This document shows, piece after piece, positions 6,547 to 36,513 of a stretch of 64,000 nucleotides of DNA; positions within the stretch are counted from its first letter, which is position 1; each line of letters starts with the position of its first letter. Origin of the DNA: Membranipora membranacea (lineage: Eukaryota > Bryozoa > Gymnolaemata > Cheilostomatida > Membraniporidae). The notes under the pieces are model-generated. The model ran no database searches. It was not told the DNA's origin and worked only from the letters and a program-made list of their open reading frames with translations. The stretch is from positions 21,082,001 to 21,146,000 of the forward strand of contig OU612072.1 of the NCBI GenBank assembly GCA_914767715.1. Direction: 5' to 3'. Position numbers and translations under genes: made by a program.

Positions 6547-6547
6547 G

Positions 6548-8119: not shown

Positions 8120-8400
8120 AACTATGAATATTAATTTGTAAATATTACACAGATTACTGTCTCAGAAGGACAGATCAAGCGGAATCTCAAAAGGTTTACC
8201 TGAGGGATCACAGGGGACCAGCTTGATACTCTGAAGGATCACAGGGGACCAGCTCGATACTCTGTATGATTCAACCATCAATTATCTATTTATATAGGTA
8301 AGTGAAGTGAAACTTAGCTGCAAACATGGATACCATAGTTTAGTAAAACAATCTACAGCAAAGCTTATTGAGTCAGAAATCATGTGACATAGTTTTTGTA
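8120..8400. repeat. Dispersed repeat, copy 1 of 3
   Basis: Begins TATGAATATTAATTTGTAAA, then has GATTACTGTCTCAG, two copies of GGATCACAGGGGACCAGCT, a TTCAACC.TCAATTATCT block, a GGTAAGT-like block, and ends near GAGTCAGAAATCATG. The same order recurs at 9495-9690, and the latter half recurs at 63776-64000. It directly precedes the GT-rich minisatellite. Confidence 0.75.
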
Positions 8401-8407
8401 GGCGAGA

Positions 8408-8808
8408 CAGTGTTGGGTGTGGTGTGTGGTGTGGGGTGTCGGGTGTGTGGTGTGTGGTGTGGGATGAGCGGTGCGGGGTGTGGGGTTTGTGGTGTGAGGG
8501 GTGGGGTGTTTGGTGTGTGGTGTGGGGTGTGGGATGAGGGGTGCGGGGTGTGGGGTGTGTGGTGTGGGGTGTGTGGTGTGGGATGAGGGGTGTGTGGTGT
8601 GTGGTGTGTTGTGTGTGGTGTGGGGTTTGAGGTGTGGGGTGTTTGGTGTGTGGTGTGGGGTGTGGGATGAGGGGTGCGGGGTGTGGGGTGTGTGGTGTTG
8701 GGTTTGTGGTGTGAGGTGTGGGGTGTTTGGTGTGTGGTGTGGGATGTTGAGCGTGGGGTGAGGGGTGTGGGGTGTGGGCGTTGGGGTGTGTTGGGTGTGT
8801 GGGGTGTA
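8408..8808. repeat. GTGTGG/GGTGTG-rich minisatellite, about 400 bp
   Basis: The plus strand is almost purely G and T, built from GTGTGG, GGGTGTG and GGGATGAGGGGTGCGGGGTG words. A higher-order unit of about 85-130 bp begins with GGGATGAG and recurs at least four times. The dense G-runs on one strand could form G-quadruplexes. Long frames here (Cys-Gly-Val forward, His-Thr-Pro reverse) are artefacts of the repeat. Confidence 0.9.
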
Positions 8809-9494
8809 GCGATAGATACTTTTAGCACGCTTTTTCTGCTGCCCATCTAAAGATATCTTCACAAAGTGAACAGATTATACGCAGTACAAACAATCAGCAG
8901 TCTTCTCTTCGGTGTTGAGACCCAACGAGGACACAATGAAACTTCTTTTTTGACCAGGAAATCAACATCTGGTAACGCTTTAATATATCATTATTACTGT
9001 TTTGTACTACATACCATTCATAGCGGGAAGTGACCTTCCTCCTCTATCTAAAAACCAAAAGGTGCAATTAGTTATTGCATTGATTCTAAAGGAATGTAGG
9101 AATCTTCATTCTGATGTAACTCTGGCCGCTGTCACTGCATGGATCTAAATCTAGCAATATATTGACCTAATATGGATTTCACCAGCCGTGAAATTAGGTA
9201 GATAATCCGGTTAGTTTACAAAAGAATAGCTACTTATTTCTGCACAATATTCAACGACAAACCAAAGCAGCAAGATATCAGTTTGACGGAACAAAATATG
9301 AAAAAATGACGCTTTGTAATAGGTGATTAATTCAGATATGCTTCACCTTCCTAAGTCTTTTCCACTGCTTTTCGATGGGATATCTCGGTTATATACGAGA
9401 AACTAACAGCTGTGTTTGTTTTATTGGCTAATCCTTTCTTATGATTAAATAAAACTTGCTTTGTGGCCTGACATGTTTAAGAGAATATAATGAA
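8809..9494. other. Intergenic sequence
   Basis: AT-rich, with no convincing coding sequence or repeat seen. Confidence 0.5.
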
Positions 9495-12706: not shown

Positions 12707-12798
12707 ATTGCTGCCAAAGCTGTCCTGTGAATCCCACAACTTGCAGCTTTCAATCATGGAGCAAGGCAGAGAAGAGGAAAATCTTAGCACAGACAAAA
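12707..12798 (+). CDS. First recognised exon: N-terminus
   Basis: Acceptor CTTTAACTTCAG before 12707, donor GTGAGT after 12798. ATG at 12756 starts MEQGREEENLSTDK, ending in phase 1. This joins exactly the two bases that open the next exon at 13526. The 49 nt before the ATG are also open in the same frame (LPKLSCESHNLQLSI), so the Met may be internal and the true start further upstream. No signal peptide is seen, in line with a cytosolic protein. Confidence 0.6.
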
Positions 12799-15700
12799 GT
12801 GAGTTCTGAGATTGATTCAGCATTTAAAGGGTGAATACAGCATATCAAATTGTGTACATGGCCTCATAAGGGGTCCGTAATGTTCATTGCTTTCGCTGAT
12901 TAGTTGGTTCGAAGTCCGAAAAAGTTTAGGGTACTGACCTAGTTTTTTTGACAGTCTACGGACTGAGGTCTCATCTACTGTGTACCAGTTCCACAACAAC
13001 TAGAATCTCGAGGATGTGTGACTGCATCAGCAACATTATGATCTAACAAGTAAATCTCTTCAACCACACTATGAAGAGCTTCACTGTGATGCTATGAACC
13101 ATCATTTTATTGATATGAGATGATACTGGGAGGATATTGGCAAAAAAACAGTGCACACAGTCTTGGTCTTAATTTCAACCTTCACTCCTAAAGAGAGAGT
13201 TTGCGGTTGACTATTGATACAACAAGAGTATACAACTCCAAATTGAACATCAATTTTGGTAGTAAATTGCATTGCTCATTGCAAACTATTTGCACAAGAA
13301 TCATCTCCTCAGCAAATAATATAACTATGCTCAGTTCGTGGGATGGAATCATTAGCTGATGCCATGTGTGTGTAATGCATGTAGTATTTGTTCCAGATTT
13401 CAAAATTTTTACAAAAATTAGATAATGAATGTTGAGAATCGTCACTTAAAACATAATAATTATATTACCTTTATTTCAAAGGTTCATTCATGACCATTTT
13501 ATTAGTTTGCTTCTGATTATTTCAGGATACGATGTGGCTTGGGAGGAGCAGGGTAACAGTAACTGGGATGATCCTCATGTCCGGGAACAAACCTTCATAC
13601 GATTACTTGTAAGCCATAGATATCTGACTCTAGTAGAGCTGGAGAGAGAGACAGCTTCAGCTGGTCAGCCAGCTTTAATCTTTATAGATGACACACCTGC
13701 AGAGCTATCAGAGAGGCTATCTAAATCAGTGAAATATCTGATGCTCCGAGAGATACCAGAAAGTAGCCTTAAAAGTCTGAGGTTGGTGAGCTCAGATTTT
13801 TATCAAACTGATTTTAATTTTATAGATCCAAACTAATTTCTCACATATTCCCCCTTCAGAATAATGCTGACTTTACCGTAAGTATCAGTACCAAGCTTGC
13901 ATGCAGAGGTTTGATCAAACCATGTTAGTCACCATTCTCCAAGGGTAGGAAAAATTGATGTGAGGTTATAATGTAGGCTCTAATGCCATTGACATACTTG
14001 ATGTATGTATATCTGTATTGGTATGTTTTAGATTATCGGAGATGAGATCACTGAAGCATCTGTGGGTTAACGGGAGTGGAAGTGATGAGCTGAATCAGTG
14101 TCTATCCACACTGACAGATCTGGTATCTCTGCGGGCCTGTATGCTGACTAAGGTACCTGACAGGTAAATATATCATTACATCATTAATATAAGCAGGATG
14201 TGAGATTAACACGTTGTCACATTATTCACTTATGATTATTAATATTATATAACACAGACCATCTGTAACCTCCTATTAAACTAACAATGGTACACATTCT
14301 GTGTGGGCGATTTAAGTTGTCTCAGTAAACTTATAAACTGAGTGAGCCTATAAGGTAATGTCAAAGATCGATCCGAATATCAACACATCATATACCGTTG
14401 GAAAGCTGCAGAGCTACTGAAAATGAATACCTGAACAAAAACTAGTTTCGATGACTTGTGTCATTTTACGGAGGAAATGAGGCAGAAAACGCTGTTTTTG
14501 TCAATGCAGATGGCGGAGCCAAATTAATTTCAAGAAATTTTAAAAACAGGTGCAATGTATACTTAAAGATTGCCTTCATCGTAAAATTTGATTTTCTTTG
14601 ATATATGACTAGTCTAAATTGACATTTTGCGTCACGTCATACAATGCATCTTTTTTGTGAAGCCGTGAAAATATATGAAGTTTCAATCATTTATTCAGAA
14701 CAGATCATAGGCTCAAAACAAAATTCATTATGATTTTCTCTTAGAGTATTCTTCAAATGTCATGCATATTGACTTTCAACGAACCAGCTTGCATATTGCA
14801 ATGACATTAGACTTTCGAATACAGCTAATACTTTCGCCACATTTGCATAACATCACACAAGCTGTCCAAATGACCATTGTTGTGGCCAAACGAAGTATTT
14901 TTGAAAATTCTCACATACAAAGCCACTTTCATTAACCAGGGTGCACACAGAAAATTTTAACAGAACTTCTCATTGCATCTTCATTTTTCTTGAATTTAAC
15001 GCAAAATAATGCCCAAAAACACCTCAAAAGTCCCAAAAAATAGCTGTTTTTTTGGCATTCTCTTGCGTTAAATTATAAAAAAATGAAGATGCAATGAAAA
15101 ATTCTGTTAAAATTTCCTGTTTGCACAATGGTTAATGAAAGCGGCTTCGTATGTGAGAACTTTCAAAAAAACTTAGTTTGGCAACATCAATGGTCATTTG
15201 GACAGCATGTTTGACGTTATGCAAATGTGGCGAAAATATTAGCTGTATTCGAGAGTCTACTGTCATTGCAATATGCAAGCTAATTTGTTGCTAGTCACAA
15301 TGAAATTTGTTCCGAGCCCATGATCTCTTCTGAATTAATGATTGAAATTTTACATATTTTCACAACTTCACAAAAAAATGTATTTAGTCAAATGTAAAAA
15401 GTCAATTTAGACTAGTCATATATCAAATAAAATCTAATTACACGATGAAAGCAATCTCTAAGCATACATTCCACCTGTTTTGAAATTTCTTGCAATTAAT
15501 TTGACTCCTTCATCTGCATTGACAAAAACAGCGTTTTCTGCCTCATTTCCTCCGTAAAATGACACAAGTCATCGAATCAAGTTTTTGTTCAGGTATTCAT
15601 TTTCAATTGCACGGCAGCTTTCCAACGGTATATGATATGATGATGTTTGGATCAGTCTTTGAAATTACCTCAAAGCTAATGGCATAACTTACCATAGTAA

Positions 15701-18700
15701 TTATGACAATTTTAAATAATCTGAGCGTATAGATTGTTGGCCAACTTAATTGTATTATTATACGTCAGTCAGGCCTCAGTAAGGTAAATGATAGTCTTGT
15801 GTTTTCTGTTTTGATAATTATTCAAAATTTACATTGTACCATCACATATAATGAGGTATGTTAGGGTGATTATGTCTTTGTATTATTATGTGAAATACAG
15901 TGTTGATGATACCAAACCATACCATAATTTTCTTTACAGTTACATTCGCCTATTCGGCTGGTCACCCGACGATATTACTATTTTATATCTTTACCAAAGT
16001 CTTCAATTCCCATTTATCTTTTTCCAGTGTCATTGTTAGAAATTGTATTGTATGAAAGGTCATTCTTTTGCATGCATGAATGGGTATGCGATACAATCAT
16101 CAATAGAAGTAGCCTAATTGACAATTTTCATATTCAAAATCCGATCAAAATTGCTCGAGTTATGAACAAAAAACATGGATTATGGACAGTAAATCAATGA
16201 TAGCATCATTGCTTCTACACCTTCCAATGACGTTATGAAGCCCCAAAAATAAGTGCCTCACTTCAGCTGTATATAGTTTCCCGTCTAGGTTTATTATTAA
16301 GTGAGGATCAGATGGTGAATGGCTGACATGAGACCATTACTTACTTAATTTGTGTATTTGAAAAAGTTAAAAATGGATGAAAAAAAACAATAAATATATC
16401 AAAATGTACTCCATTTATTCCATGCTATCAGCTACGACAATTTTCAACGCTGTATTCTGTTTGTGAAGTATTTAAGATTCTTATGATGTCACGTCAAATT
16501 CTGCCGTCAGTAGACAGCGGATCAATTGAGACAATTTGCAATGCATTACTCAGTTATCTGAGGGTTTATTATCCAATGACTTGTTTTTTCATCTGTTCGC
16601 TAAGTATTTGAGCTTTTCCTGAACTCATGCCAACTGCTACCATAGCTCGACAGCAGGCAATTGATTCCATAAAAAACCTTCATATTCTTGCTCACCATGC
16701 TTGAAAACCCCAACAAACCTAAATACATTGAATTCCAGCATGTTTAAAATTTTGACAAAAATAAGCCAGTGTGTTGCAAATTAAATCAGCTGACTTATAT
16801 AACCAAATCGAGCAACTCTTTTTTTTAATCCAAACTCACTACTGTAACAATTAATTTTCGAGTTGTTCTCTCTTGACAAATGGATATACACAGACTGAAC
16901 GGTAATATGCAAAAGTTTTTCATGCATTGCGCTGCTGGGAAATAGCTATACAAACTTTGTTTGTTTTTGTACGTCATCGAAATTTGCAAATCATCAAAAC
17001 ATCACAGCCTTAATTAATTTCTAGACAATCATTATTTATGTATTTTTGTTGTCACTTATTTTACTCTGTAAAAGGAATTACCAAGTGTGGTCCATTTTCC
17101 TGCATTCAGAGTTGCTCTCTTATGAGTGCAAACTTGATACAAGAGAGAAATGGATCAAACTTGATCTAAGAATACACTGCACTTTAGGAAATTCCTGTGA
17201 GGCGAAGAAATCAATGCGACTCAGGGCTAAACGAAAAATAATTGTATAAAGCAGGAAATAATGTGAAAATCATATTTCTTTGTCTGCAGCGTTGCAATGA
17301 TGATATCACTGAAACAGCTACACTTACATGATAACTATCTAAGTAGAGATGATAAGCTGAGTCGGACATTGTCTTGACATTGCACGCTGTGTGGATACAT
17401 CTAAAGTGGGAATAATGTGAAGATTATATTTTCTTTGTCTGCAGCATTGCAAAGATAAAATCGCTGAAGGAGCTGGACTTATACGATAACAAACTAAGTA
17501 GAGATGATCAGCTGAGTCAGACATTGTCAGCACTAACTAATCTGGAGATACTGTACCTGGGATAATGTGAGCTGACTAAGATACCTGAAAGGTAATGACA
17601 CTCATTGGCTGATACCTCAGTATACTCATATTTATCCTACCGTTATCATCATTTAGGTCAAGGTATATGAAAGTCTATCTTTAAAAATCACTAAAACCCA
17701 CAAGCAGCAAAACAAACATGAATATAAATATTAAATTGATTGGGAGTCGTGTCATCACTTAAAACTGTCTAATGATTTCCCAGGGCCCTCTAATTTTAAG
17801 AACTAGTCATGCGTTCAATTGCCCAACAAATAAAAAGTGTTTCTAAATTTTTGTCAAAGACAGTCATCATATATGCTGAAAATCAATTAGGTTTATTATT
17901 TCCCTGATTTAGTGTTGGGTAGAGAACGCTAATATGCAACAGCTTTTTTTGCATTCCTCTGTTGAGAAACCTATAGAAGCTATACAACATTTCTGTCTTT
18001 GGTTGATAAAATGGATTTAACAAGTGTACAGACAGCACCTTAATAGAAGAACATTACTTATTATGACCTTTTTTGTCGTGTTGATACATCATCAAATCTT
18101 GCAAAAAAAAAGAAAACATTACAGCCTTAAATATTTTGTAAACACCTGTTTTATGTATTTTTGTTGTCGGGACAGCCAAAGCCCCTTATTTAACTCTGTA
18201 AGACGAATTACCAAGTTTGGTCCATTTTCCTGCATTCAGAGTTGCTCTCCTATCAGTTCAAACTTAATGCAAGAGAATAATGGATCAAACTTGATCTTAG
18301 ACACACTGCATTTTAGGGAGTTCCTGTGAGGCGAAGAAATCAGAATAACTCTGAACTATCCGAAAAATAATTGTATAAAACAGGGAATAATGTGAAGATT
18401 ATATTTCTTTTTCTGCAGCATTGCAAAGATGACTTCGCTGAAGGACCTAAACTTAGACGTTAACAATCTAAGTAGAGATGATCAGCTGAGTCAGACATTG
18501 TCAGCCCTAACTAATCTGGAGATACTGAACCTGGGAGACTGTCAGCTGGTAAAGATATCTGACAGGTAATGACACCCATCGCCCAAAACCTCAGTTTATT
18601 TAGTTTATTCATCTTTACCCTTTTGATTTCATCATTCAGGTCAAGGTATATGAGAGGTATATAAGGTTTACTAAGGGCACTGTAACCCCAATTCAGCAAA

Positions 18701-21700
18701 AAAAAAACAAATGTCAGACTGTTAAATTGATTGGAAGTCATCTTATCATTTAAAACTGTCCAATGATTTCTTAGGGTTCTCTACTTTTTTTAGATTTGGT
18801 CTTGGTTTACTTGCCCAAAAATGAAAAGTGTTTCTAAATTTTTGTCAAAGACAGTCCTCATATAGGCTGAAAATTATTTAGGTACTTTTATTTCCCTGTT
18901 TTAGTATTGGGTAGTGAATGCCAAAACGCAACAGTTTTTTTGCATTGCTCTGTTGAGAAACCTATGTAGCTATACAATATTTCTGTCTTTGGTTGATAAA
19001 ATGGATTTAACAAGTGTACAGACAGCACCTTAATAGAAGAACATTACTTATTATGACCTTTTTTGTCGTATTGATACATCATCAAATCTTGCAACAAAAA
19101 AAACAATACAGCATTATTTTTTTTTTGTAAACACCTGTTTTATGTATTTTTGTTGTTGAGACAGCCAAAGCCCCTTATTTAACTCTGTAAGACAAATTAC
19201 CAAGTTTGATCCATTTTCCTACATTCAGAGTTGCTCTCCTATGAGTTCAAACCTAATACAAGAGAATATTGGATCAAACTTGATCTTAGAATACACTGCA
19301 TTATAGGGAGTTCCTGTGAGGCGAAGAATTCAGAGTAGCTCTGGGCTATCCGAATAATAATTGTATAAAACTGGGAATAATGTGAAGATTATATTTTTTT
19401 TGTCTACAGAATTGCAAAGATGAACTCGCTGAAGAAACTAGACTTATGCAATAACAATCTAAGTAGAGATGATCAGCTGAGTCAGACATTGTCAACACTC
19501 ACTAATCTGGAGATACTGAACCTGACAGGGTGTCATCTGACTAAGATACCTGACAGGTAATGACACCCATCGGCCAAAACCTCAGTTTATTTAGTTTATT
19601 CATCTTTACCCGTTTGATTTCATCATTCAGGTCAAGGTATATGAGAGGTATATAAGGTTTGAAGGCACTGAAACCCCAATGCAGCAAAAAAATGTATGTC
19701 AGCATGTTAAACTAATTGGGAGTCATCTTATCACTTAAAACTGTCCAATGATTTCCCAGGGTTCTCTAATTTTTTTTAGATTTAGTCATGCGTGTACTTG
19801 CCCAACAAATGAAAAGGGTTTCTAAATTTTTGTCAAAGACAGTCCTCATATAGGCTGAAAATTATTTAGGTATTTCTATTTCCCTGTTATAGTATTGGGT
19901 AGTGAATGCTAAAACGCAACATTTTTTTTGCATTGCTCTGTTGAGAAACCTATAGAAGCTATACAACATTTCTGTCTTTGGTTGATAAAATGGATTTAAC
20001 AAGTGTACAGACAGCACCTTAATAGAAGAACATTACTTATTATGACCTTTTTTGTCGTGTTGATACATCATCAAATCTTGCAAAAAAAAAGAAAACATTA
20101 CAGCCTTAAATATTTTGTAAACACATGTTTTATGTATTTTTGTTGTCGAGACAGCCAAAGCCCCTTATTTAACTCTGTAAGACGAATTACCAAGTTTGAT
20201 CCATTTTCCTGCATTCAGAGTTGCTCTCCTATGAGTTCAAACTTAATACAAGAGAATAATGGATCAAACTTGATCTTAGAATACACTGCATTATAGGGAG
20301 TTCCTGTGAGGCGAAGAAATCAGAGTAGCTCTGGGCTATCCGAAAAATAATTGCATAAAACTTTGAATAATGTGAAGAATATATTTCTTTGTCTGCAGCA
20401 TTGCAAAGATGACATCGCTGAAGGACCTAAACTTAGACGTTAACAATATAAGTAGAGATGATCAGCTGAGTCAGACATTGTCAGCACTCACTAATCTGGA
20501 GAAACTGAACCTGACAGGGTGTTATCTGACTAAGATACCTGACAGGTAATGACACCCATCGGCCAAAACCTCAGTTTATTTAGTTTATTCATCTTTACCC
20601 GTTTGATTTCATCATTCAGGTCAAGGTATATGAGAGGTATATAAGGTTTGAAGGCACTGAAACCCCAATGCAGCAAAAAAATGTATGTCAGCATGTTAAA
20701 CTAATTGGGAGTCATCTTATCACTTGAAACTGTCCAATGATTTCCCAGGGTTCTCTAATTTTTTTAGATTTAGTCATGCGTGTACTTGCCCAACAAATAA
20801 AAAGTGTTTCTAAATTTTTGTCAAAGACAGTCATCATATATGCTGAAAATCATTTAGGTTTTTTATTTCCCTGTTTTAGTGTTGGGTAGTGAATGCTAAA
20901 ATGCAACAGTTTTTTTTGCATTGCCCTGTTGAGAAACCTATAGTAGCTATACAACATTTCTGTCTTTGGTTGATAAAATGGATTTAACTACTGTACAGAC
21001 AGCCCCTGAAAAGAAGAACATTACTTATTATGACCTTGATACATTATCAAATCTTGCAAAAAAAAAGAAAACATTACAGTGTGAAAGTCAACAAGAGTCC
21101 GGAAACTTGATACTATCACTGGTCGACAGCTGAAGTCGGCTGCACCGGTCCTAGCTGAGCCGTTGAACACCATATTCAATAGATCAATCCAGCAGGGTAC
21201 TATGCCTCAGATATGGAAGACGGCGACGATCAAACCCATACCAAAATGTGCAGGTGCCGTTGAACCAAAACACTTTCGTCCAATAGCGTTAACTTCTGTA
21301 GTTGGGAAGTGTCTTGAGCAACTAGTAATGAAACGCTTAGCCCCTAACCTTAACGATCCCACTCAGTTCGCATATCAGCCTAACAAATCCACTGAAGATG
21401 CGTTGATATCTCTATTAGACACTGTTACCGAACACCTAGACAGAAATGCTAAGAATAGTGTGAGAGCACTCTTTATAGACTTCTCCAGCGCATTTAACAC
21501 CATAAACCCGGCTACCATGATAAGAAAACTCCAAACCTATGACATTCATCCAAACATCACTAATTGGGTATTCGAATAATGGATCAAACTTGATCTTAGA
21601 ATACACTGCATTTTAGGGAGTTCCTGTGAGGCGAAGAAAACAGTGTAACTCTGGGCTACCCGAAAAATAATTGTATAAAACTGGGAATAATGTGAAAATT

Positions 21701-27700: not shown

Positions 27701-30700
27701 CACGCTTGGCCGCTGAAGCTTGCAAAGCTCAGTGTGAAATACTCAAGATGTTTAAATTTAATGATGTAGTGGGTGTAAGTAGTAATATATAAAAAAGTGG
27801 GTTATACCCATCCACCTCCTTGCTTCTTTGGGTCTCAACAGGGATTTGAACCTGGACCACTCACTGTGATCGAGCACGCTAGCCACTCGGCCACGCCGTC
27901 CCGCTGAAGCTTACAGATTTTCATTGATTTATCTTTGAGATACGTGGGTAAAGTAAGCATACCCTCATCTGGTTTTACTACGCATATGTGGTAGGACACA
28001 GGACTGTGTTTCAGCCGTTTCTTCTATTTTTTTCCAAAAAGCTTTTTGAAAAAGTGATATGAGGCACTGGATATGGGTTTTATATTCACATTCTGCAGTT
28101 TCGTGGATTATATCCTGCTCAGATATCAAAAAATCATAAATTAACACCGCTACTCCTCTCAACAAATGACATGTGCTAATAAAGTCTGTATATTAATTAG
28201 TGAATCTATTGAAGTAAAACTGCTATCACCATCAATTAAATAGGACACATATTTGTTGAATCTGGTTTTTATTTTAAAACAGTTCAAATGATCAAAGCTC
28301 TGCAGAAAATTTACAATACCAATTGCCATCCTCCCCCTATCAATATTCTGTGCATGATGTCTGGGCAAGATTGCAGTCATCCCGTTAATCCGAATAGGAA
28401 TAAATTATTTCATAGTAGACCTGGAGCAACCGTAAATCCAACATAACAATAGGTAGTCCGATGAAAGCAACTAATAGCTAACTTTCAGTTTCATGATATC
28501 TCTTCGAAGCTTCAATTTGAATGTTTACAGTTCATCAGAAAGCTTAGGAATGTTCAAAACCGCAAAATTTACACCTCTCAGTGTACACAATAGAGAGATG
28601 GGGCCGTTTTTAGGGGGCAAAAAATATTACATTAGGAGAAAACTATCATAAGAAATGGGAGAACCCCTACTATTGTAATGGAAAATCCAGGTCACATGAT
28701 GTTGTGTACAACTTTGACAGTGTATTAGTAAACAGTGTAACATATTTGTGTGGAATGTGGTAACAGAGAGCAGACTCACAGAATTGTAGTCTTTACTAGA
28801 TCTCAGAAGAGGAAAAGTAATGATGACATTTTTATAATGATTATGAAAAACATAAAGCAGTCAGCTGGTCTATCCCCGAATTTCTCCGGGATATGTAATT
28901 CCCGTTAACTGCTGCCTCAAGAGAACCCTCTGATTTCTTATATTCACCTTCAATGCGGCCACACAGTTCTCAATCGAATTGTTCACTTCCACAGTGATTG
29001 TGATTTATACGGGCGCCATGATTTTTCGAGGATAATTCAAGGTGATTTGCCCGTTGGGTTCAGTTACAGTTTTCAAATATTGGACACTACTGTGCCTAGT
29101 TTCTTTCTAGTAAAGGTAGTTCCCAGTGAGGGGTGAAGTAGGTTGGTAAATTCCCGCCGGCTATTTGATGATATTGTCTTCTCGTTTTCGCCGATTTAAT
29201 TTCTCATCAGGTGAAATGAACGTTGAGGTGCCATTATTTGTGTCTCAATCTCCCCAACAACACCTTCATTGGGGCCGATAGACATAGCTTCAGAAAATGA
29301 AGGCATTGGATATGGTGAAATATATTGTATATATTATTGTGGTATTTTATTTGTGTCAAAATCACAGATGACGCACCATTTAACTACATATTTCAAGTGA
29401 GCCTACAGGCGAATCAAATTTCAATTTTATATTGACATTTTTATGACTGTGACTGATGGGAAGGGGTTTGCAACACAGAACTCTCATTTAAGACAACTCT
29501 GAAAAAGATGAAAATACAATCCATTTCACTCATAATTGCCTAGCAATAATCCCATTCAGATTATTAGTTTATTTTAACATCGACGACTTACCTAGTGGTA
29601 CATTGATCCACATTTATGCTGTGGAATGCTCAAATATATTGGCTCCCAGCTGCAGGTAAATCCATTGGATGCCGCATATACTGTTGAACGAATAACTGAA
29701 CTGATCTCGGTATTTGGAGAGCAATAAATTTGACCAAAATGAAATCAAAATGAGATAAATAATCATAATTATCTGATTAGTATAATATACACATAAATAT
29801 CTCATCTTATTCAGTATAAGAACCATGGGGAGACTGAAACAGCTGGCGTTGCGCGATAATAACATCAAACAGTTACCTGAATGGATCGGTGAACTAGTCT
29901 CTCTAACTTATCTGAACCTTGATGAAAACTCTGATCTCATCCGATTACATTCCAGTATTAGTTCGCTGAATCTCTCCACATTCAGCTGTAAGAAGTGCAA
30001 CAAGCTAATAGAGCCACCCTATGCTGTGTGTGAAGGAGGTTGGAGCGACATAAAACACTACTACACAGACATGGAAAGTGGAAAAGAAGTCATCTCTTTA
30101 ACACCTATTGTCCTCATTGGTAGAAAAGAGGCAGGGAAGTCTTCTCTTCTAAGTGTCATGAAGCATAAGTTCAAAGCTCGAAGTCCACATGATGCAAGCG
30201 TTGAAAAAACAAAGGTTTTTGGTTTTGAGAAGGTACAGATTCAAGGCCCTGATTCAGAGAAAAGTGATGTCGAGGTTATTGACTTTGGAGGTGATGAAAT
30301 TTACCATCACGGATACCACCTGACAATGCGTGAAGACTGCATACCAGTAGTTGTGGTGAATATGTCAGAAATTGAAGAAATAGCCAAAAAGCGAGGACCA
30401 CGTGAAGCCACTAGAAAGGTGGCATTTGATTGGGTCGCACACCTTGGCTCAGCAGTTCAGAAGATACAGGACCCAATCGTAGTTCTCACCCACCGTGATG
30501 AATATGAAACTGAATCAGACCTGTATGAAAAACTAGCAGTGGATTTCACAGACACTCTAAAAAATTTGACTGGTGAGCTTCTAAAAGGAAACAGTCAAAT
30601 AGAAAGGCTCGCTGATCGTTCTGACGGGGATCATTTTTTACCCGTGTTCAGCCAGGAAAATGTGTTCTCAGTAGGCTTTTCTCAAGATGAAGTCTATTCA

Positions 30701-33700
30701 TCAGTATTCCAGAGGCTAGAGAGAACCCTCTACAACAGAGTAGAGGGTTCAAAATGCTCTATTCCCAGGGATTGGCTTTTTCCCTTCACCAAGAATAATG
30801 ACAGCTATCTCAAATATGACCTTATTTCTCCTTCTCTGAAGCACCCTCGGACTGTTTTTGACTTCATGAAGCGATCTGGTCAGATATTGTGGTACCCAGA
30901 TTCCTCTTCCCCTGGTCTGGCAAATACTGTGTTCCACAAAATACCAGTTTTAACAGAGCTCATAGAATCATTGTATAGTCACACCATGATTCCTGATATC
31001 GTCATGCAGCAATCAGCAGATGGAATAGTTACTTCAGGACCCAGCAGCTATCAGAGAAATGGAATTATGAGCAAAGCTGACCTTCATTCCCGCATTTCTA
31101 CCCTCTCCTCTAAGATACCGTCTGATATTGCTATTGCGCTTTTGGTAAAGTTCAAACTTCTGTTTGGCCCAACTGTAATCAATAATCAGGATGAATGCTA
31201 TCTGATGCCATACTTCATGCCTGAACATTCATTTTCTCATCATAGAGCTGAGTTTCAGCTATATGCATCTCTGAGTTTTGTTGGATTGAAAGTGCCTGAC
31301 TATGCATTTCACCAGCTGACAGTGACATTCCTTGAGCTTATGCAGGAAAGTTATCAAATTTACCCGTATGGTAATGGAGCATCCGCAAAAGTACACGGTC
31401 AAAGATCTAATCAACTGGATGTTGATGTTCACTTAGTTGCTGAGAAAGAAGCACAGAGATTGATTATTAAATTAGATGGGTCTGTATCTGTGATTCCGGA
31501 ATGCTGGCAGATATTCTATTTGCTTCTCAGAAAACTGTCATCTGCAGCGAAGGATGCCTGGCCTGCAACAAAGATAGCATATGAAATTCCCTGCCCACAT
31601 TGTTGCATGAATGAGAAATCCAATCCAGCACTGATGGACTACCCACCTACAGCCAGAAAACCAGCGGGGAAAACAGGTTCATGTAGTGGTGAAACTGGGA
31701 TACCATCTGCACTTTTAGGACAATGTAGGTTCAATTATCTGTTACGTTTAGTTTGTTAGAGGGTGATGGCAAGGAACTACCAGGCTGATCAAACTCAATA
31801 TCACAATATCATTGGTAACCATATGTATGATAACTTACAAGTTAAACTACCATTCCCTTGCTTTGCAATGAACAAATAAATTCATCAACAAATTATTGTA
31901 TTGTTACCAGGGACCATTTATTTTTTGTGGTTTTAACCAAACTCAAAAAATTTTGCCTGGTGCACATCGCACACTCCAAATCTGAATCCTCTTTTCGTTT
32001 TTGATTTAGGTTTCCTCAAAGAATACAATGATTTGAAAGATTATATCCTCAGGAAAGGACTCAATGTGAAAGCAGAGTTAAAGCGACTGGTTGAAGAACA
32101 GGAAGGAATTATAGACATGGTGCCTGAGTATCAGACGTCATTGTATGGCACACCTTATACTGAAAAGGTAGTAGGCATGCTAATCTTAGGTTCAGAATTT
32201 CATGACTGAATAACATAAATAATTCCATTCCTGGAATGCGTCTGCAGTTTACAATAATTTTGAGGTCCCAGCATTCAAAGCCTCGTTGATCATTATTGCT
32301 ATACATAAGATTCCATTGAATAGATGTTTCCATCGAACCAATCTAATATTTATCCTTTAGCATTTTCGTATCATTGTATACAACAAACACTTGAATCTTT
32401 TAAGGTTTACAGAATGACAGCCACTCGGGGTAGAGCCCTTATCCTAAATTACAGCATAACAGGAGAGAGAAAAGGTTCCCAGTATGACTATCAAAATCTC
32501 ATAACAATGTTCAAAAATTTTGGATTTATCATCAGTGAACAGAGTATGAACAAGGATTGGAGCCATCAGGTACGATTTTTGTGCCATTATAGGTACTTAG
32601 CTAGGATAAATATAATTGAATGACTTCTCTATGACTGGAATTTTTCCTCACAAAGTGTATCTGGTTAGAGCCAAAGATAAGCTCTGAAATTAGTCATATT
32701 GATTGTTGCTATGAATGAGCTCTGCGATAATTAATTTCATGACTTTGATGTTTGATCGCATTTAATGGTCATTTTGAATTGCCCACAGGAACTGTATGAA
32801 GCGATTGCATATGAGACCAAGTATGTAGACAAGGAGACAGGAAGGTCAGTTCATGCTAGTCTTGGAATGTTTGCACTGGTGCTGATGGGTCATGGTGGAT
32901 ATGGATATATAAAGACTAAAGAAACGGACATGCATCTCGAAGATATATACAGACTTCTGGCACCAGATGAATTTCCTGCCATGAGGGGAAAGCCAAAGAT
33001 GATTATACTACAAGCCTGCTCGGGAGGTGAGGTTTGCTAAATAAATGCTCGTATTCTTTACTTCTTTGCACATGAATCATCAAAATTGTGTAACTGTGAT
33101 GCATGTGTTTGAAGATTTTAAAAATGCTATTAAACATAGGTGAACTTAGTTTACTTATAAGGAATGTTCACATGGCTTCGCTTACTTTTTTTGAGGCTGT
33201 GGCGTTAAGTAAAAAAGGTCATTCCAGCAACACTGCTTTCTTTACTAAGATTACTTTGCATATGAAACACAGGAAGGTGTGAGTCATCAAAATACTAACA
33301 CCTAGTGTTACTAGATATATCAGCAGGGTATATTCACACTTATGGAGCGGTAATATAATTTCAAAATGCAGGTTCAAAGTGCTAGGACCACGTTTTGCAG
33401 GGTACTTGAAACTTAAAGACTGCTTTACATTTCAGAAGAGAAGATGAAGCTAGAGCGGGTACCCACAAGATCGACAGGTACAGATACTCTGGCTGGTAAG
33501 TAGAATCCCCTGTATGCTATCTGATCAGCTCATGTGATCACTTATATGTGGGTGAGCACTGTGTATTATGTTTATACTTTTTTGCAGAAAATTGCAGTAG
33601 TAGTAAAAGTATTTAATTGAGTTGAGACTGTGTATTTATAAGAATTTGGACATTGATGAAGCTAATGAAATATAAAAAAATTTCGATTAATTAAAAAGAT

Positions 33701-36513
33701 TTTCCCATTGCAGTGTCAGTATAATACATGTTCTCACTAATCAGACTTAATTATTAACAATATTAAACGTTGTCCATCACCCTAGGATAAAATATCAGTT
33801 TGATCTAAATGCTTGAGTATGTGAAATTAATATCAAAGTATATAATTGTGCCCTTATATTTGCAAATAATGAATGATGAAATCTATTTTAGAGAACCAAG
33901 ATATCCAGCCAATATCTGCCACAACATTGTCAGACGGAGATATGCCTTCAACATCAGATGGACAGTACAAAAAGCGAACACAAGACACGACACCAGGTCC
34001 TGCTCAAAAGAAAAGGAAAACCACAGGTACCTGTCATGCCTCCTCACTATTATAACTGTCAATCAAAATTAAAAGATCTGATGTATTCATGTTAGCCCAT
34101 TGCTGAAAAGAAAATCAACACTTGTAGGGGGTCTGAAGTCATTCAAAGAAATCTGTAACATACTTAACATTAAATGGTTTAATGAAGATGCCGGATACAC
34201 AATTGCAACTAATTTTGGCCATCATTGAAAAAATTTGGTGTGCCTTTTTAGTGTGCCCTGCACTGGCCGATTCACTTGTCGCAGGTAACTGTAATGATGC
34301 TATTTTAAAGTTATTAAGTTGAAATTGCTCCGTAGTGCCTCAAGGAGACACAATTGTAAAAGCTCTTCATTGTAGTAACTAAGTCGAATCAAAATCTGAT
34401 GCATTCATATGCAGACAAGTTCATCACATACAAAAACATCACATACAAAACGAACACAATCTATATATTATATAATATATAATATACAGTGTAAGCCGGT
34501 TAATTCGAATCCTGATAATTCGAAATTCCTATTCATTCAGACAACTGAGTGTGGTCCCAGCTCAGCCAATGATTTTTAGACTCGTTTAATTCAAAAATGT
34601 AACTGTAATTCGAAATTGTCTTCCCCTACCCAGGAAGAAAATAACTCCATAAATTCAGAGGGTTTATGATTCGGAGGTGTCTTTACTAACCAAGGAAGAT
34701 TGTAACTCCGGAAGTGATCAATATCTGGACTTAACATTTTTAAACAAAGCTGCCAACTCCGCATATCCAATTCCGTGGTTACTACAGTTCACTAGTCATC
34801 AGTGTTTTATTTCCATTTTCACTTGCATTGCACAATACAAAAAATAAAAAGTTGATGCTTGTCAAACCCCTGAAATACGCCCCACATTCGTTGAATTTAA
34901 ACAACTCTTAATTAGAACTGATTTCTTGGGTCCCATGGAGATGAATTAAGTGACTTACATGTAATATGTATTAGATTATGATTATAGCTGGAGCCTGGCT
35001 TAAATTGCTTGTTGATAATCACTTTTTTCACTCATGGTAGATCAACATTCACACAAGGCTGATAGTACCAGAAGAGACCAAACCAAGTATACAGAGGACT
35101 TTCCAGACGACAGTCATCTGTGTATGGATGATCTAATTATCTTCAAGCCTAGCTTTCCTGGTAATAATTTAGCTACAATAGTAAAGACATAATGTTATCA
35201 AAAGTACTCTCCCATTTATATGCACACTTAATTTTGATATTAAAGCTGATATATCATTAATACTATCAACAATGGGATGCAGACACACAGTGTGTCTCTA
35301 TTCTCGCATACAAAGTCGCATATGCTGGCAGAAAGACTGTAATTGTAGCCGTGCAGACTCCATTACAATTTTTTGCATACAATCAAACATATATCAACCA
35401 AAGGAAATGCAAATCAAATTCTGCACTGCAAATCTGGTTTCCCTGAAAATGATGCAAAAAATGCTTAGAACTGTGAGTGTTTCAGAATTTTCTGAGTTGT
35501 GATGGCCTTGACATCAAAGGTTATAATATTATGACATTTTGATATTGAACTGGTGAGTGGCATTACCTGATTCATAGAGCGTTGACTGTTAAAAACCACA
35601 ATACAAAAACATCCATTAACATATTTTCATTGCTATTCATCATTTTTATAGATTATGTTGCAAACAGGGATGAAACAGGGTCAGTCTTTATTAAAGCTCT
35701 TGTTACAACATTCTACAAGCAGGCGGGAAATAAGCATGTAGAACAACTGAGTAAACTGGTAAGTTTTCTCTCTATGTTATTTTAATGTTGGATATGATTC
35801 TTAAGGCGGCACCCGCCGAACTCGGCGCTTAGACTGCAGCGGGATTCAAAGCCTAGTGTTTGACAGGTCAGGTCCTCTAACCAGCTTACAAACATTCTAT
35901 TACAACATGCTTTGTCAGTTGTTCAACATTAATGCTCACAATAATTTATCTGACAAATTAGTGATGATATTTGAAAATAGTGGGCTCCGCATCAAAAAAT
36001 TAAGGAAAACTAAAAAATGTGACTACTGATATGTAGCTTTTGAGAAAGAAAACGACACATCAGGTCCATGTCAGGTGAAAATACCACCGATAAACTGTTA
36101 TACAGGTTATACACCAAATGATGCTTGCTATGAAACACACCGATGTAGAGGTGAAGTTTTATTTTGATGTTATGTCCAAATTGTAGATTGATGGAACTGT
36201 TTTCTGACATTGACTCAAATACGTGAATGCCTGATTGGCATATTTTGTTCAGCCTCCACAAGTTTTATGATCGAAAACCTGATTTAAATATGTTGTAATA
36301 TTCTAGATTCAGTCGATTGTGAGGGAGACTCCACCATTCAAAGATGAGGATAAAGGGGATCGGCAGATTCCTGTAACAACCTGCACTTTCACTAACGACA
36401 GGAAGCTCTTCCTATCACCAGGAGTTAATATGAGAACAGAACATCCTAAAGAACTCACTGAACCAGTACTACCTCCAGGTCTAAATACACCAAAACAGGA
36501 TTCTCCGAACTGA
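12756..36513 (+). CDS. LRR-Roc-COR-caspase fusion protein (spliced gene model)
   Basis: Hand-built exons: 12756-12798, 13526-13781, 14032-14163, 18419-18565, 19410-19556, 20399-20545, 29560-29655, 29815-31724, 32010-32167, 32405-32569, 32789-33026, 33436-33495, 33892-34026, 35041-35160, 35652-35758, 36307-36513. Every junction is GT-AG, every phase matches, and the sum is 4068 nt (about 1355 residues). Domains: N-terminus (1-100), LRRs (100-390), Roc GTPase (about 415-560), COR (about 640-860), helical linker (960-1012), caspase p20 (1013-1146), long linker (1146-1240), p10 (1240-1310). Roco proteins are GTP-controlled scaffolds, and caspases are Cys proteases that cut after Asp. The fusion suggests a cytosolic sensor that activates its own protease on ligand or nucleotide change; that is inference. 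The frame in the first exon stays open upstream of the ATG to the acceptor, so further 5' coding exons are possible. No transcript was available. Confidence 0.85.
13526..13781 (+). CDS. Second exon: N-terminal domain leading into LRRs
   Basis: Acceptor ATTATTTCAG; the donor is read as GTTGGT after 13781, because this gives the phase-2 end needed by the next exon. It codes 85 residues (YDVAWEEQGNSNWDD to SSLKSLR), acidic at first, then with an LRR-like end (SVKYLMLREIPESSLKSLR). I do not recognise a named domain in the first 60 residues. The donor is weaker than the others in the gene, so the exact 3' edge is less certain than the exon itself. Confidence 0.75.
14032..14163 (+). CDS. LRR exon 1 (132 nt, symmetric phase 2)
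   Basis: Starts after TATGTTTTAG and ends at GTAAAT. It codes LSEMRSLKHLWV, then a linker, then LTDLVSLRACMLTKVPD, matching the layout of the later 147-nt exons (SLKxLxL ... LTNLEILNL..C.L.KIPD). It is shorter and more diverged than the array exons, so it is probably the older unit of the LRR section. Both edges are phase 2. Confidence 0.8.
14354..15669. mobile_element. Long palindromic element, copy 1 (in intron 3)
   Basis: Left edge GGTAATGTCAAAGATCGAT; right edge is its inverted partner (ATCAGTCTTTGAAATTACC). The two arms of about 640 nt are inverted copies of each other throughout, for example GAGGCAGAAAACGCTGTTTT at left and its complement near 15530. The centre is near 15010-15040. A second copy lies at 38090-39470. 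It has no open frame, so it is a non-autonomous foldback-type DNA element. Confidence 0.85.
15670..16896. other. Intron sequence without recognised content
   Basis: AT-rich. One 62-codon open frame at 15851 has no features of a protein domain and is judged random. Confidence 0.5.
17290..17377 (+). pseudogene. Truncated LRR exon, array unit 1
   Basis: Good acceptor (TTTGTCTGCAG), then VAMMISLKQLHLHDNYLSRD and on to a TGA at 17375. The second half of the exon and its donor are missing; the sequence passes straight into the tail of the next unit's intron. Only 155 bp separate this acceptor from the next one. If spliced in, it would end the protein. Confidence 0.8.
17445..17591 (+). pseudogene. 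LRR exon with nonsense codon, array unit 2
   Basis: Full length (147 nt) with intact acceptor and donor (GTAATG), coding IAKIKSLKELDLYDNKLSRD and on through LTNLEILYLG. A TAA then stands where the other units have a Gly/Asp/Thr-Gly-type codon. Inclusion would truncate the protein before the GTPase. Because it is symmetric, skipping it keeps the frame. Confidence 0.8.
18419..18565 (+). CDS. LRR exon, array unit 3, intact
   Basis: 147 nt, phase 2 at both ends, acceptor TTTTTCTGCAG and donor GTAATG. It codes two LRR units of about 24 residues: IAKMTSLKDLNLDVNNLSRD, then ..LTNLEILNLGDCQLVKISD. The junction codon is AG|C (Ser). LRRs usually form a curved binding surface; here they would be the ligand- or partner-binding part of the sensor. 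Confidence 0.9.
19410..19556 (+). CDS. LRR exon, array unit 4, intact
   Basis: 147 nt, phase 2-2, acceptor TTTTGTCTACAG, donor GTAATG. Codes IAKMNSLKKLDLCNNNLSRD, then ..LTNLEILNLTGCHLTKIPD. It differs from unit 3 mainly at the variable, surface-facing LRR positions (KKLDLCNNN against KDLNLDVNN). Confidence 0.9.
20399..20545 (+). CDS. LRR exon, array unit 5, intact, mosaic
   Basis: 147 nt, phase 2-2. The first half (IAKMTSLKDLNLDVNN) matches unit 3 and the second half (LNLTGCYLTKIPD) matches unit 4. The upstream intron also follows unit 3 and the downstream intron unit 4. This is the footprint of unequal crossing-over or gene conversion with a junction in the exon. Confidence 0.9.
21079..21578 (+). 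mobile_element. LINE reverse transcriptase fragment inside the array
   Basis: About 500 bp coding MPQIWKTATIKPIPK, HFRPIALTSVVGKCLEQLV, FAYQPNKSTEDALISLLDTV and the palm Asp in LFIDFSSAFNTI. It is cut off before the YADD box and lacks a 3' tail. It replaces about 165 bp of the array unit (between ACATTACAG and AATAATGGATCAAACTTG). Loss of both LINE ends with loss of host sequence is not simple retrotransposition; a patch repair or conversion event is more likely. Confidence 0.85.
21719..21786 (+). pseudogene. Deleted LRR exon, array unit 6
   Basis: The acceptor (TTTGTCTGCAG) and the first codons (IAKITLL) remain. The rest of the exon and its donor are gone, and the sequence jumps into the downstream intron (TTCATCTTTATCCTAC). 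It cannot be spliced as an exon. Confidence 0.8.
21787..23760 (-). mobile_element. LINE, 5' half (endonuclease and start of RT), minus strand
   Basis: Minus strand, from 23760 downwards: a charged start, then an AP-type endonuclease (MLTETWLTSG; IHGDFNDLDV with the GDFN motif; SNDHC near the end), then a linker rich in Lys/Arg (KAGKPLLENPKTIKLRRLKE). RT fingers/palm A follow (QFAYTPGKGCTDALVRFI; the palm Asp in VLLIDNRKAFDNMD). It stops at 21787, before the catalytic box. Stops and frame changes are present. The RT class is of Jockey/CR1 type. Confidence 0.85.
23850..24190. repeat. Inverted repeat, left arm
   Basis: Inverted match to 26830-26714 and then 25735-25500, for example CTTCATTGATGTTTCTTCTG against CTTCATTGGTGTATGTTATG read on the other strand, and CATATTTAGAAATTAAAAGG in both. 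The right arm is interrupted by a LINE piece. Confidence 0.8.
24200..25120. repeat. Tandem repeat (unit about 130-300 bp) between inverted arms
   Basis: The words GTACCCAGTTGTAGCAATCA, TCAGCGRCAGCGCGGCAGCAT and GTGAAATGTTAA recur in the same order near 23965, 24225, 24355, 24630, 24750 and 25020. One unit is broken by the small palindromic MITE at 24508. No open frame of note. Confidence 0.7.
24508..24630. mobile_element. Palindromic MITE, unexpanded copy
   Basis: About 60-bp arms: CAAGTTTTATCCAATTGCCTG at left, and GCAGGCAAATGGACCAAACTTG at the right as its inverted partner. They close on the 20-base perfect palindrome GGTCACGCCATGGCGTGACC at the centre. The core word GGCGTGACC is the same word that is repeated in the 12-bp arrays at 1257 and 9750. 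Confidence 0.8.
25500..25735. repeat. Inverted repeat, right arm (first part)
   Basis: Inverted match to 23965-24190. It ends at ACAACTGGGTA, where the LINE fragment starts; the arm resumes at 26714. Confidence 0.8.
25736..26713 (+). mobile_element. LINE, 3' half (RT palm to tail), plus strand, inserted in the inverted repeat
   Basis: Codes GAPQGTKHGPILWLIYVNDL, the catalytic KYADDTTFYKP, then SAKLLGVTVDSQLSFSDHID and PVLSYACPVWFQF. A frame change near 26440 leads to a basic tail (KYRPSKCRTVKRQNSFFEFY). It ends AAATAAACAAACATCAAAA. It starts just before the GxPQG box, so it is 5' truncated. It splits the right arm of the inverted repeat exactly, which makes it younger than that structure. 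Confidence 0.9.
26714..27600. other. Right arm remainder, then intron sequence
   Basis: 26714-26830 is the rest of the inverted-repeat arm. The remainder is AT-rich intron without recognised genes; an 81-codon frame at 27357 looks random. Confidence 0.5.
27608..27725 (-). mobile_element. tRNA-derived SINE 1
   Basis: On the minus strand: head AGCTTCAGCGGCC, a box-A-like GTGGCTGAGCGGTTGA, a box-B-like AGAGTTCAAATTCT, then a short body and an AT-rich tail (TTTTTATTTTTATA). The spacing and boxes are those of a tRNA gene, but the arms do not pair well and there is an attached body. Confidence 0.8.
27788..27920 (-). mobile_element. tRNA-derived SINE 2
   Basis: Minus strand: the same head (AGCTTCAGCGG), box A GTGGCCGAGTGGCTAGC, box B CCAGGTTCAAATCCCTG, a body with AAGAAGCAAGGAGGTGGATG, and a tail ending TTTTTTATATATTACT. 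It is related to SINE 1 but its promoter boxes are better preserved. The tRNA part looks like a Ser/Leu-type (class II) tRNA. Confidence 0.85.
27921..29559. other. Intron sequence
   Basis: No recognised gene. Two adjacent minus-strand frames (28380 to 27965) are open for about 60-70 codons each and look weakly protein-like, but I can match them to nothing. Confidence 0.4.
29560..29655 (+). CDS. Small LRR exon before the GTPase exon
   Basis: Acceptor AATCCCATTCAG, donor GTAAAT, 96 nt, phase 2 at both ends. It codes LLVYFNIDDLPSGTLIHIYA and then VECSNILAPSC. The pattern (LP.GTL..IY...CSNILAPS) leads smoothly into IRTMGRLKQLAL of the next exon, as KIPDS leads into IAKMTSLK in the array. Length and phase fit, but without a homologue or transcript this exon is less sure than its neighbours. 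Confidence 0.55.
29815..31724 (+). CDS. Large exon: last LRRs, Roc GTPase and COR domain
   Basis: 1910 nt. The acceptor TTATTCAG gives IRTMGRLKQLALRDNN, then IKQLPEWIGELVSLTYLNL, classic LRR sequence. Roc follows: P-loop GRKEAGKSS, the switch DFGGDEIYHHGYH, and G4 as LTHRD (the THxD form usual in Roco proteins instead of NKxD). COR follows: RTVFDFMKRSGQILWYPD to CYLMPYFMPEH. After it comes a region ending with the CPHCC motif seen after COR in MFHAS1-like and other invertebrate Roco proteins. The donor is read as GTAGGT after 31724, because phase 1 is needed by the next exon. Known Roco domains bind GTP and dimerise through COR; here that would set the position of the attached caspase. Confidence 0.9.
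32010..32167 (+). CDS. Helical linker exon between COR and caspase
   Basis: Acceptor TTTTTGATTTAG, donor GTAGTA, in phase 1 and out phase 0. It codes FLKEYNDLKDYILRKGLNVK, AELKRLVEEQEGIIDMVPEY and a short end TPYTEK: charged and helical, and probably a hinge or pro-segment. I do not recognise a death-fold (CARD/DED) in it, although initiator caspases usually have one here. Confidence 0.8.
32405..33026 (+). CDS. Caspase p20: two exons with catalytic His and Cys
   Basis: Exons 32405-32569 and 32789-33026. Starts VYRMTATRGRALILNYS, the usual caspase opening (YxM...RGxALIxN). ERKGSQYDYQNL carries the Arg that in caspase-3 (SRSGTDVDAANL) holds the substrate Asp. The catalytic His is in LVLMGHGGYG and the catalytic Cys in IILQACSG (about residues 1102 and 1144). 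The usual QACRG has Ser in place of Arg here. Both catalytic residues are present, so proteolysis is plausible. Confidence 0.9.
33436..34026 (+). CDS. Caspase inter-subunit linker: two exons, basic and Asp-bearing
   Basis: Exons 33436-33495 and 33892-34026, phases 1-1 and 1-1. It codes EKMKLERVPTRSTGTDTLA, then ENQDIQPISATTLSDGDMPS and a basic part with KKRTQDTTPGPAQKKRK. Candidate self-cleavage Asp sites include LSDG and TSDG. The two basic clusters 11-12 residues apart look like a bipartite nuclear localisation signal. With the next exon's first half, the linker is about 95 residues, much longer than in typical caspases. Confidence 0.8.
34487..34961. mobile_element. Tc1/mariner- or pogo-like MITE in a caspase intron
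   Basis: Left end CAGTGTAAGCCGGTTAATTCG; right end GAATTAAGTGACTTACATG is its imperfect inverted partner; TA dinucleotides flank both ends. The interior repeats AATTCGAAAT-type words seen in pogo/Tigger-like ends. 475 bp, no coding sequence. Confidence 0.55.
35041..35758 (+). CDS. Caspase linker end and p10 start: two exons
   Basis: Exons 35041-35160 and 35652-35758. The first ends ..DDSHLCMDDLIIFKPSFPG, the strand that precedes p10's active-site loop. The second gives DYVANRDETGSVFIKALVTT and FYKQAGNKHVEQLSKL, matching the p10 pattern (YxxxR...GSxFI.AL...). The substrate-binding Arg is there, but the loop between it and GS is one residue shorter than in caspase-1 or -3. The PDD and MDD stretches are possible cleavage points to free p10. 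Confidence 0.88.
36307..36513 (+). CDS. Last exon: caspase p10 end and C-terminus
   Basis: Acceptor TAATATTCTAG, phase 0, TGA at 36511-36513. It codes IQSIVRETPPFKDEDKGDRQ, then IPVTTCTFTNDRKLFLSPG, which fits the end of caspase p10 (QIPxxxSTLxKxLYF). A 30-residue Pro/Thr tail with no known motif follows. No canonical AATAAA was found close downstream. Confidence 0.88.
   Translation: MQSIVRETPPFKDEDKGDRQIPVTTCTFTNDRKLFLSPGVNMRTEHPKELTEPVLPPGLNTPKQDSPN

Follow-up and report, generated by a model that had tools for sequence, protein, structure and literature searches.

In known Roco proteins the Roc-COR part is dimeric, and this dimer switch is the part mutated in LRRK2 disease. LRRK1, LRRK2 and a bacterial Roco protein carry kinase/WD40 domains or nothing at their C-terminus, whereas the bryozoan gene described here is predicted to end in a caspase. 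Activation of the well studied caspases of animals usually goes through separate scaffolds. In a PDB search, LRRs followed by Roc, as in the bryozoan protein, were aligned in LRRK1 (8e04, profile positions 3-183), LRRK2 (7lht, 3-162) and 6hlu (2-174), which we take to be the Chlorobium Roco; these alignments end before COR, and the top matches of the search were plain LRR proteins. The LRR-Roc-COR layout with a C-terminal effector has been reported for bacterial LRR-AP-GTPase(Roc)-COR conflict proteins, whose effectors comprise at least 24 domain kinds, including caspase, TIR and trypsin, with several paralogues per bacterium (PMC8195603, sections consulted). Two proteins, P0003 and P0002, have the orders LRR-Roc-COR-CHAT and LRR-Roc-COR-TIR. 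Unlike the bacterial conflict proteins as presented in those sections, the bryozoan protein has an animal-type caspase (p20, long linker, p10), many exons and cassette LRRs (PMC8195603).

Brown-algal LRR-ROCO genes, proposed as immune receptors, combine LRR-Roc-COR with repeated phase-2 LRR exons whose concave sites show diversifying selection, and their group 3 has a C-terminal peptidase domain (PMC11378527). Tandem phase-2 LRR exons with concave-site selection were also found in the bryozoan. The brown-algal exons are of 72 bp and code one repeat, those of the bryozoan are of 147 bp and code two, and up to 47 genes per brown-algal species compare with at least 106 Roc-COR loci (not annotated genes) in the bryozoan; the word caspase does not occur in the text of that paper, whereas the window gene is predicted to end in one (PMC11378527). 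Since exon length and number of repeats per exon differ, the likeness to brown algae is one of working, and not a demonstration of the same lineage. In amphioxus, LRRs-caspase and TNFR-caspase hybrids fuse a recognition domain straight to a caspase with QACxG, and an adaptor-free shortcut has been proposed for them; their main text names no GTPase, in contrast with the Roc-COR of the bryozoan (PMC2575513, main text). Animal LRR-Roco proteins with an immune effector include sea-anemone NG1, which is LRR-Roc/COR-TIR_2 (PMC5094078), and the Aplysia TIR-Roco (PMC9334734), both with TIR instead of caspase; the relevant passages of these two papers describe no large family or LRR cassette selection, unlike what is found here. 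A figure-based statement counts up to forty ROCO domain combinations in animals (PMC11378527, in part), and one legend of a sponge NLR figure names CASc and COR among the domains drawn (PMC12909245, legend). The initial annotation of this DNA knew of no well studied protein with this order. That holds for animals in the passages of open papers that were searched, in which no report of an animal LRR-Roc-COR-caspase protein was found, but the same layout has been reported in bacteria (PMC8195603, in part). The bryozoan gene would thus be of a known kind, the Roco-effector receptors, in a combination and on a scale not found in print for an animal.

The gene lies in a 64-kb stretch of chromosome 8 of Membranipora membranacea (21,082,001-21,146,000), hereafter called the window. 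A spliced model of 15 coding exons (12756-36513, plus strand) gives an in-frame product of 1323 aa that ends at a TGA stop, with the domain order LRRs, Roc GTPase, COR and complete caspase (Table 1). All 14 introns are GT-AG and all exon phases are consistent. The initial annotation had counted 16 exons with agreeing phases; the phases hold and the number is corrected. Every motif it had quoted was found in the window exons, with GRKEAGKS, DFGGDEIY and LTHRD in exon 29815-31724, LMGHGG and QACSG together in exon 32789-33026 and RDETGSVFI in exon 35652-35758. Its observation that LRRs, Roc-COR and caspase are joined is confirmed by the in-frame model and by the same order across the gene family. 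Two LRR-exon copies near 17291 and 17445, both with stops, were excluded from the model. A chance splice model was rejected because the same order recurs through the family, and a paralogue repeats the same structure.

Table 1. Predicted exons and tandem LRR array of the window gene (positions in the window).
Feature	Position	Strand	Remarks
Exon 1, start ATG	12756..12798	+	Donor gtgagt, phase 0-1; 5' end uncertain (by eye, an acceptor-like site some 50 bp further upstream)
Exon 2, N-terminal domain of unknown fold into first LRRs	13526..13781	+	Spliced model; 24 genomic copies
Exon 3, LRR	14032..14163	+	Phase 2-2
Tandem array, ~990-bp units, one LRR exon per unit	17055..21740	+	Start-to-start spacing 974-1320; also contains a truncated unit (near 21574) and dead copies (near 17291, near 17445)
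LRR exon, two repeats, 147 nt	18419..18565	+	Phase 2-2
LRR exon, two repeats, 147 nt	19410..19556	+	Phase 2-2
LRR exon, two repeats, 147 nt	20399..20545	+	Phase 2-2
Large exon: final LRRs, Roc GTPase, COR, Cys-x-His-Cys motif close to end	29815..31724	+	
Linker exon, COR to caspase	32010..32167	+	Preceded by phase-1 intron
Caspase p20 part 1, RKGSQYD	32405..32569	+	Presumably holds the S1-pocket Arg
Caspase p20 part 2, catalytic His (LMGHGG) and Cys (QACSG)	32789..33026	+	
p20/p10 linker	33436..33495	+	Spliced model
p20/p10 linker with Asp-Gly sites, basic KKRK run	33892..34026	+	Sites by eye
Linker end and p10 start	35041..35160	+	
Caspase p10 core, RDETGSVFI	35652..35758	+	
Last exon, C-terminal p10 and stop codon	36307..36513	+	

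The identity of each domain was assessed with Pfam. Taken exon by exon, the caspase pieces gave E values of 0.01, 5.8e-10 and 0.025, and the joined protein matched positions 1-230 of the 233 of the caspase model at E 2.7e-25. In the PDB, the caspase part matched best with 3sir (1.6e-10) and 3sip (1.9e-10), whose chains are named Caspase, and next with a caspase-2 construct. The Roc match in the window gene is borderline, with 27.4-27.5 bits in the exon alone and 26.1 in the whole spliced protein for a cut-off of 27, and COR is below threshold in the window protein (COR-B, 13.9 bits for a cut-off of 27). Among 16 relatives that the window Roc-COR exon aligns with over its whole length, COR-A was called in 5 (best 3.3e-9) and COR-B in 4 (best 1.8e-6); through these aligned relatives, a COR domain directly after Roc is predicted in the window protein as well. 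Pfam Roc was found at E ≤0.01 in 16/16 members, and the G1, G3 and G4 motifs of the GTPase (GxxxxGK[ST], D[FV]GG and THxD) are present in all 16 aligned members. A Cys-x-His-Cys motif near the COR-B end of exon 29815-31724 (C593, H595 and C596 of the translated exon) is invariant in the same number of aligned members (16/16) and is possibly a metal site or a structural knot.

Of 50 loci scanned for the catalytic His/Cys dyad of caspases (Peptidase C14A) with a QACxG-type pattern, 30 gave it, 26 under the strict His pattern and four on reading the sequence. Among the remaining 20, 18 end before the Cys or fall short; the other two, L055 and L095, diverge in sequence but have both His and Cys. 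Wherever the alignment extends to the end of the p20 exon, both catalytic residues are there (30/30 loci). In L011 (C8:20068148-20068750), a 92% paralogue, the active site reads EACSG instead of QACSG, the rest being intact. The RxG[SA]xxD motif was detected in 30 and the p10 R..GS.F[IL]-type motif in eight of 51 loci scanned, most of which cover only part of the gene; we take the Args of both motifs to be the S1-pocket Arg (P1 Asp). No NACHT or NB-ARC domain, as expected of an NLR, no protein kinase, as expected of an LRRK or DAPK protein, and no TIR domain matched the model at E ≤0.1. A death-fold prodomain (DED/CARD) was found by Pfam neither in the 1323-aa model nor in 10 upstream ORFs, picked from the 22 plus-strand ORFs of at least 35 aa that start between 8851 and 12621.

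We then sought relatives of the window gene in a genome sequence of 339,339,785 bases in 18 contigs; the published tzMemMemb1.1 assembly has 339,374,674 bp in 21 scaffolds (PMC10290214), so that a few small pieces lie outside. Innexins are encoded in this genome (55 rows, best E 9.3e-101), and a sponge was rejected as the host on that ground. With the window Roc-COR exon as query, at least 76 rows were obtained (243 candidates, 69 scored), none containing a stop, which merged into 69 distinct genes at 28-100% identity. Every one of the 69 genes listed has caspase sequence downstream on the same strand. For 41 of them, the at least 145 caspase matches listed include one no more than 10 kb downstream and on the same strand; none of these matches lies within 10 kb of the 69 genes on the upstream side or on the opposite strand. 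The other 28 were settled by reading the downstream DNA (18 and 9 loci, and lastly C3:25620517). That these 28 genes lack a caspase, as the matches listed would have it, was rejected, the downstream DNA having given one in 28/28; C3:25620517 was likewise discarded as an exception, with a divergent caspase downstream (Pfam E 9.7e-5). The figure of 69/69 includes L020 and L021, which rest on weak p20 matches (E 2.6e-5 and 9.4e-5), and the listed caspase C9:1315754, which sits 5.6 kb away.

A second search, in which a distant member served as query (71 rows, 70 of them stop-free), added 37 loci, for a total of at least 106 Roc-COR loci, which are loci and not annotated genes. Of the new ones, 21 have a listed caspase downstream, and C3:14198669 was assigned a divergent one by reading the DNA. 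A caspase is thereby present downstream of at least 91 of the 106 loci listed, counting the doubtful C5:28216752, whose nearest listed caspase is 9.9 kb away; the other 15 are loci left out of the downstream reading. Among the 145 caspase matches listed, 64 fall within 10 kb downstream of a Roc-COR locus, against about 0.2 expected by chance, and 81 have no adjoining Roc-COR locus among the matches listed. Roc-COR loci occur on at least 10 of the 11 chromosomes among the matches listed, where the nearest relatives of the window exon share 92% identity with it and lie at least about 1 Mb from it. The window gene is one of a large family of about 90 such genes, with recent copies. In a protein database search, all four matches among 4881 candidates were Roc-COR proteins, one named Nostoc and none named animal, so the database probably has few or no animals. 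Two loci, C1:30534693 and C3:14198669, have Roc-COR within one uninterrupted reading frame each (1634 and 1705 aa), far longer than in the other rows. A dense cluster of 21 listed caspase matches in one orientation was observed at C1:33.2-36.7 Mb, one of them paired with Roc-COR among the matches listed.

The predicted protein could also be read as two neighbouring genes, a Roco gene followed by a caspase gene, always duplicated together and separately transcribed. Pfam does see the domains in separate exons, as this reading would have it. However, COR and the linker exon are separated by a phase-1 intron that interrupts a Cys codon (T|GT) in L011, L012, L013, L015-L018, L019 and the window gene (acceptor frames by eye), so that the junction is kept in the window's own subfamily, in the 80% subfamily and in L019; in L010 the same junction splits C|GT, an Arg codon, and in L014, L027 and L031-L033 the donor side only was seen. 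A paralogue of 92% identity, 1.05 Mb distant, retains each of the nine exons that run from Roc-COR to the stop, with the same phases, the same stop and equal lengths except for one extra codon. Distances in Roc-COR and in p20 co-vary over 20 loci (Mantel r 0.805, with 0/2000 shuffles as high; L044, the last of 21 loci, was dropped, its p20 being outside the search pattern). We rejected the two-gene reading, which we hold to be very improbable, on junction conservation and on the order of the paralogues, same in order and strand in 69/69 listed Roc-COR genes. Because all 69 have a same-strand caspase downstream and the 92% paralogue keeps the structure, LRR-Roc-COR-caspase is very probably a single gene, presumably transcribed as one unit.

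For the Roc-COR to caspase half, conservation of order, junction and 3' exons among paralogues strongly supports the one-gene reading of the initial annotation; for the LRR to Roc half that reading is supported less strongly. The N-terminal exon has 24 genomic copies, all on chromosome 8, at 65-100% identity and 23 of them without stops. Among the matches listed, 19 of the 24 are followed within 90 kb by a Roc-COR exon of the same strand, 4 (including the window gene) have it within 16.1 kb, 10 have LRR exons in between, and no Roc-COR exon lies on the opposite strand within 90 kb (0/24). Again among the matches listed, nine also have a same-strand Roc-COR exon upstream, as expected in a tandem cluster, and five have none downstream within 90 kb, so that the tie is looser for the 5' half than for the 3' half. 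In the window gene, the link from LRRs to Roc spans a 9.3-kb intron with retroelement-like pieces. This intron (20546-29814) contains reverse-transcriptase-like and nuclease-like ORFs in both orientations, assigned by eye: 21085-21579 (+), 21774-22403 (-), 22836-23306 (-) and 25722-26453 (+).

The LRR array consists of tandem units of about 990 bp, and every unit carries a single exon of 147 nt that codes two repeats. When one LRR exon was used for a DNA search, at least 42 places were found (113 candidates, 40 scored), 41 of them on chromosome 8; the one cassette outside it, at C2:32070302-32070445, is 86% identical. For the analysis of selection, 40 full-length exons were used, 36 from elsewhere and four from the window, of which 39 are open and 35 unique. 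The ten most variable of the 48 codons all coincide with exposed positions of LxxLxLxxNxL, of which there are 12 (1e-8 if placed at random); these 12 positions were taken from the general motif but written down after the variability table had been seen, and positions 8 and 34 do not vary. Nei-Gojobori dN/dS was 3.3 at the exposed positions (2.5-5.4 in 60 bootstrap resamples), 0.47 elsewhere and 1.16 over the 48 codons, and none of 100 random sets of twelve codons reached the observed ratio (half sample). LRR exons diverge more than their flanking introns in two of three pairs (p 0.014 and 0.020; third pair 0.095), the pairs not being independent. The LRR exons are under diversifying selection at the concave face, their recognition surfaces evolving fast as in immune receptors.

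The remainder of the gene behaves differently with distance. For Roc-COR, pairs of about 80% identity gave dN/dS values of 0.36-0.40 and pairs of 41-48% identity gave 0.19-0.20, and for p20 the values were 0.12-0.25 in two distant pairs; since dS exceeds 1 in the distant pairs (1.3-3.1) and is therefore saturated, the low ratios there rest on saturated dS. Roc-COR and caspase appear conserved in these distant pairs. Ratios close to neutral were found in the closest pairs (Roc-COR 0.47-0.81; p20 1.03 and 0.64; p10 0.20). The window gene and L011 give 0.74 overall and 1.03 over p20, and the p20 of the window differs from that of L010 by 11 amino-acid-changing and no silent substitutions. Constraint among the closest paralogues is weak or relaxed.

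Identical LRR exons at different places, 39 being open and 35 unique, indicate that very recent duplicates exist. These, together with a single TAG in one of 71 Roc-COR rows and in one of 24 N-terminal exons and with the two dead LRR exons (near 17291, near 17445), would suit the view that the cluster is mostly a graveyard, rich in retroelements and made up of copies in decay or of haplotypes left uncollapsed. We find this view highly unlikely: Roc-COR rows are stop-free in 76/76 and 70/71 cases, the nearest window Roc-COR relatives listed are 92% identical at a distance of about 1 Mb or more, and older Roc-COR pairs have a dN/dS of 0.19-0.40, resting on saturated dS in the distant ones. LRR exons L064 and L065, near 20.64 and 22.31 Mb of C8 (1.7 Mb apart, on opposite strands), encode an identical protein, a hint that an inverted duplication took place recently.

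Some paralogues are mosaics. Along the Roc-COR exon, in blocks of 60 columns, the window gene is 75-97% identical to L013, L014 and L015 up to column 540, then 57-64% and finally 24-41%. L014 in turn is 80-100% identical to L013 up to column 660, and to L031 and L033 it is 43-67% identical before the last stretch and 93-95% within it; its p20 is of the L031-L033 type. We read these mosaics as probable recombination inside COR-B, by which effector halves would have moved between sensors.

From the predicted architecture and its conservation, we consider it probable that the gene encodes a cytosolic LRR recognition receptor with its own caspase executioner, set off by a Roc-COR switch. The LRR arch would bind a varying ligand, either microbial or, in a colonial animal, marking self and non-self, and ligand binding would shift the Roc-COR GTPase between monomer and dimer states. 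In such a GTP-driven assembly, two or more chains would be brought together, so that their C-terminal procaspase domains pair and cut themselves in the long p20/p10 linker, then cut cell targets. This linker has about 100 residues and several Asp-Gly or Asp-Ser sites which, judged by eye, seem suited to self-processing. The outcome would be cell death or inflammatory signalling with no separate apoptosome or inflammasome adaptor; this adaptor-free activation is inferred. New specificities could come from tandem duplication of phase-2 LRR cassettes with point changes at the concave face, and effector halves may at times be swapped between paralogues. The initial annotation had proposed a self-contained sensor, switch and protease acting as an immune or cell-death trigger. 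Diversifying selection on the LRRs supports the sensor part, and because this selection is at the concave face, an immune or death trigger is the best guess for its role.

The same chemistry could act on another ligand, in allorecognition rather than pathogen defence: colony tissue of kin and non-kin would be told apart and cells killed at incompatible contacts. We regard this as a minority possibility. Variable LRR surfaces fit either ligand, but the classic allorecognition locus is often a single region, whereas Roc-COR loci are listed on at least 10 of 11 chromosomes. In favour of allorecognition, bryozoans are colonial, and bryozoan allo-incompatibility is named as a use of cell death (PMC8195603, in one section). 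Symmetric phase-2 cassettes allow an LRR exon to be kept or skipped without frame shift. More tentatively, skippable cassettes and swapped COR-B/caspase halves over about 100 genes might form a combinatorial receptor system, an individual-specific, large repertoire with its own death proteases, adaptor-free and plant-NLR-like, which may serve immunity as well as allorecognition; we give this extension less weight than the single-receptor reading and only slightly more than allorecognition in place of defence.

Animal Roco and caspase proteins have roles in development and cell death, and polypide degeneration is an example of regulated tissue regression. The family could, on that background, be developmental death machinery whose LRRs bind endogenous partners. 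A dN/dS of 3.3 at exposed LRR positions and at least 106 loci would be unusual for housekeeping regulators, and we judge this improbable. If a recognition receptor with its own caspase is the correct reading, a single-chain LRR-GTPase-caspase with about 90 diversifying copies would be a simple model of recognition wired straight to death, the Roco dimer switch could be read through a protease assay, and bryozoans would gain a candidate immune or allorecognition repertoire.

Other features were observed around the gene. Rfam and tRNA scans of the 64-kb window gave no match. Upstream of the gene, integrase-like and reverse-transcriptase-like ORFs were seen by eye at 4253-4723, 4888-6262 and 6442-6999, and a THPTPH repeat in several minus-strand frames, by eye a minisatellite, at 8282-8874. 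The intron after exon 3 contains a large inverted repeat (14348-15675), with arm pairs of 255, 198, 93 and 83 nt that are 86-90% complementary, perhaps a foldback element.
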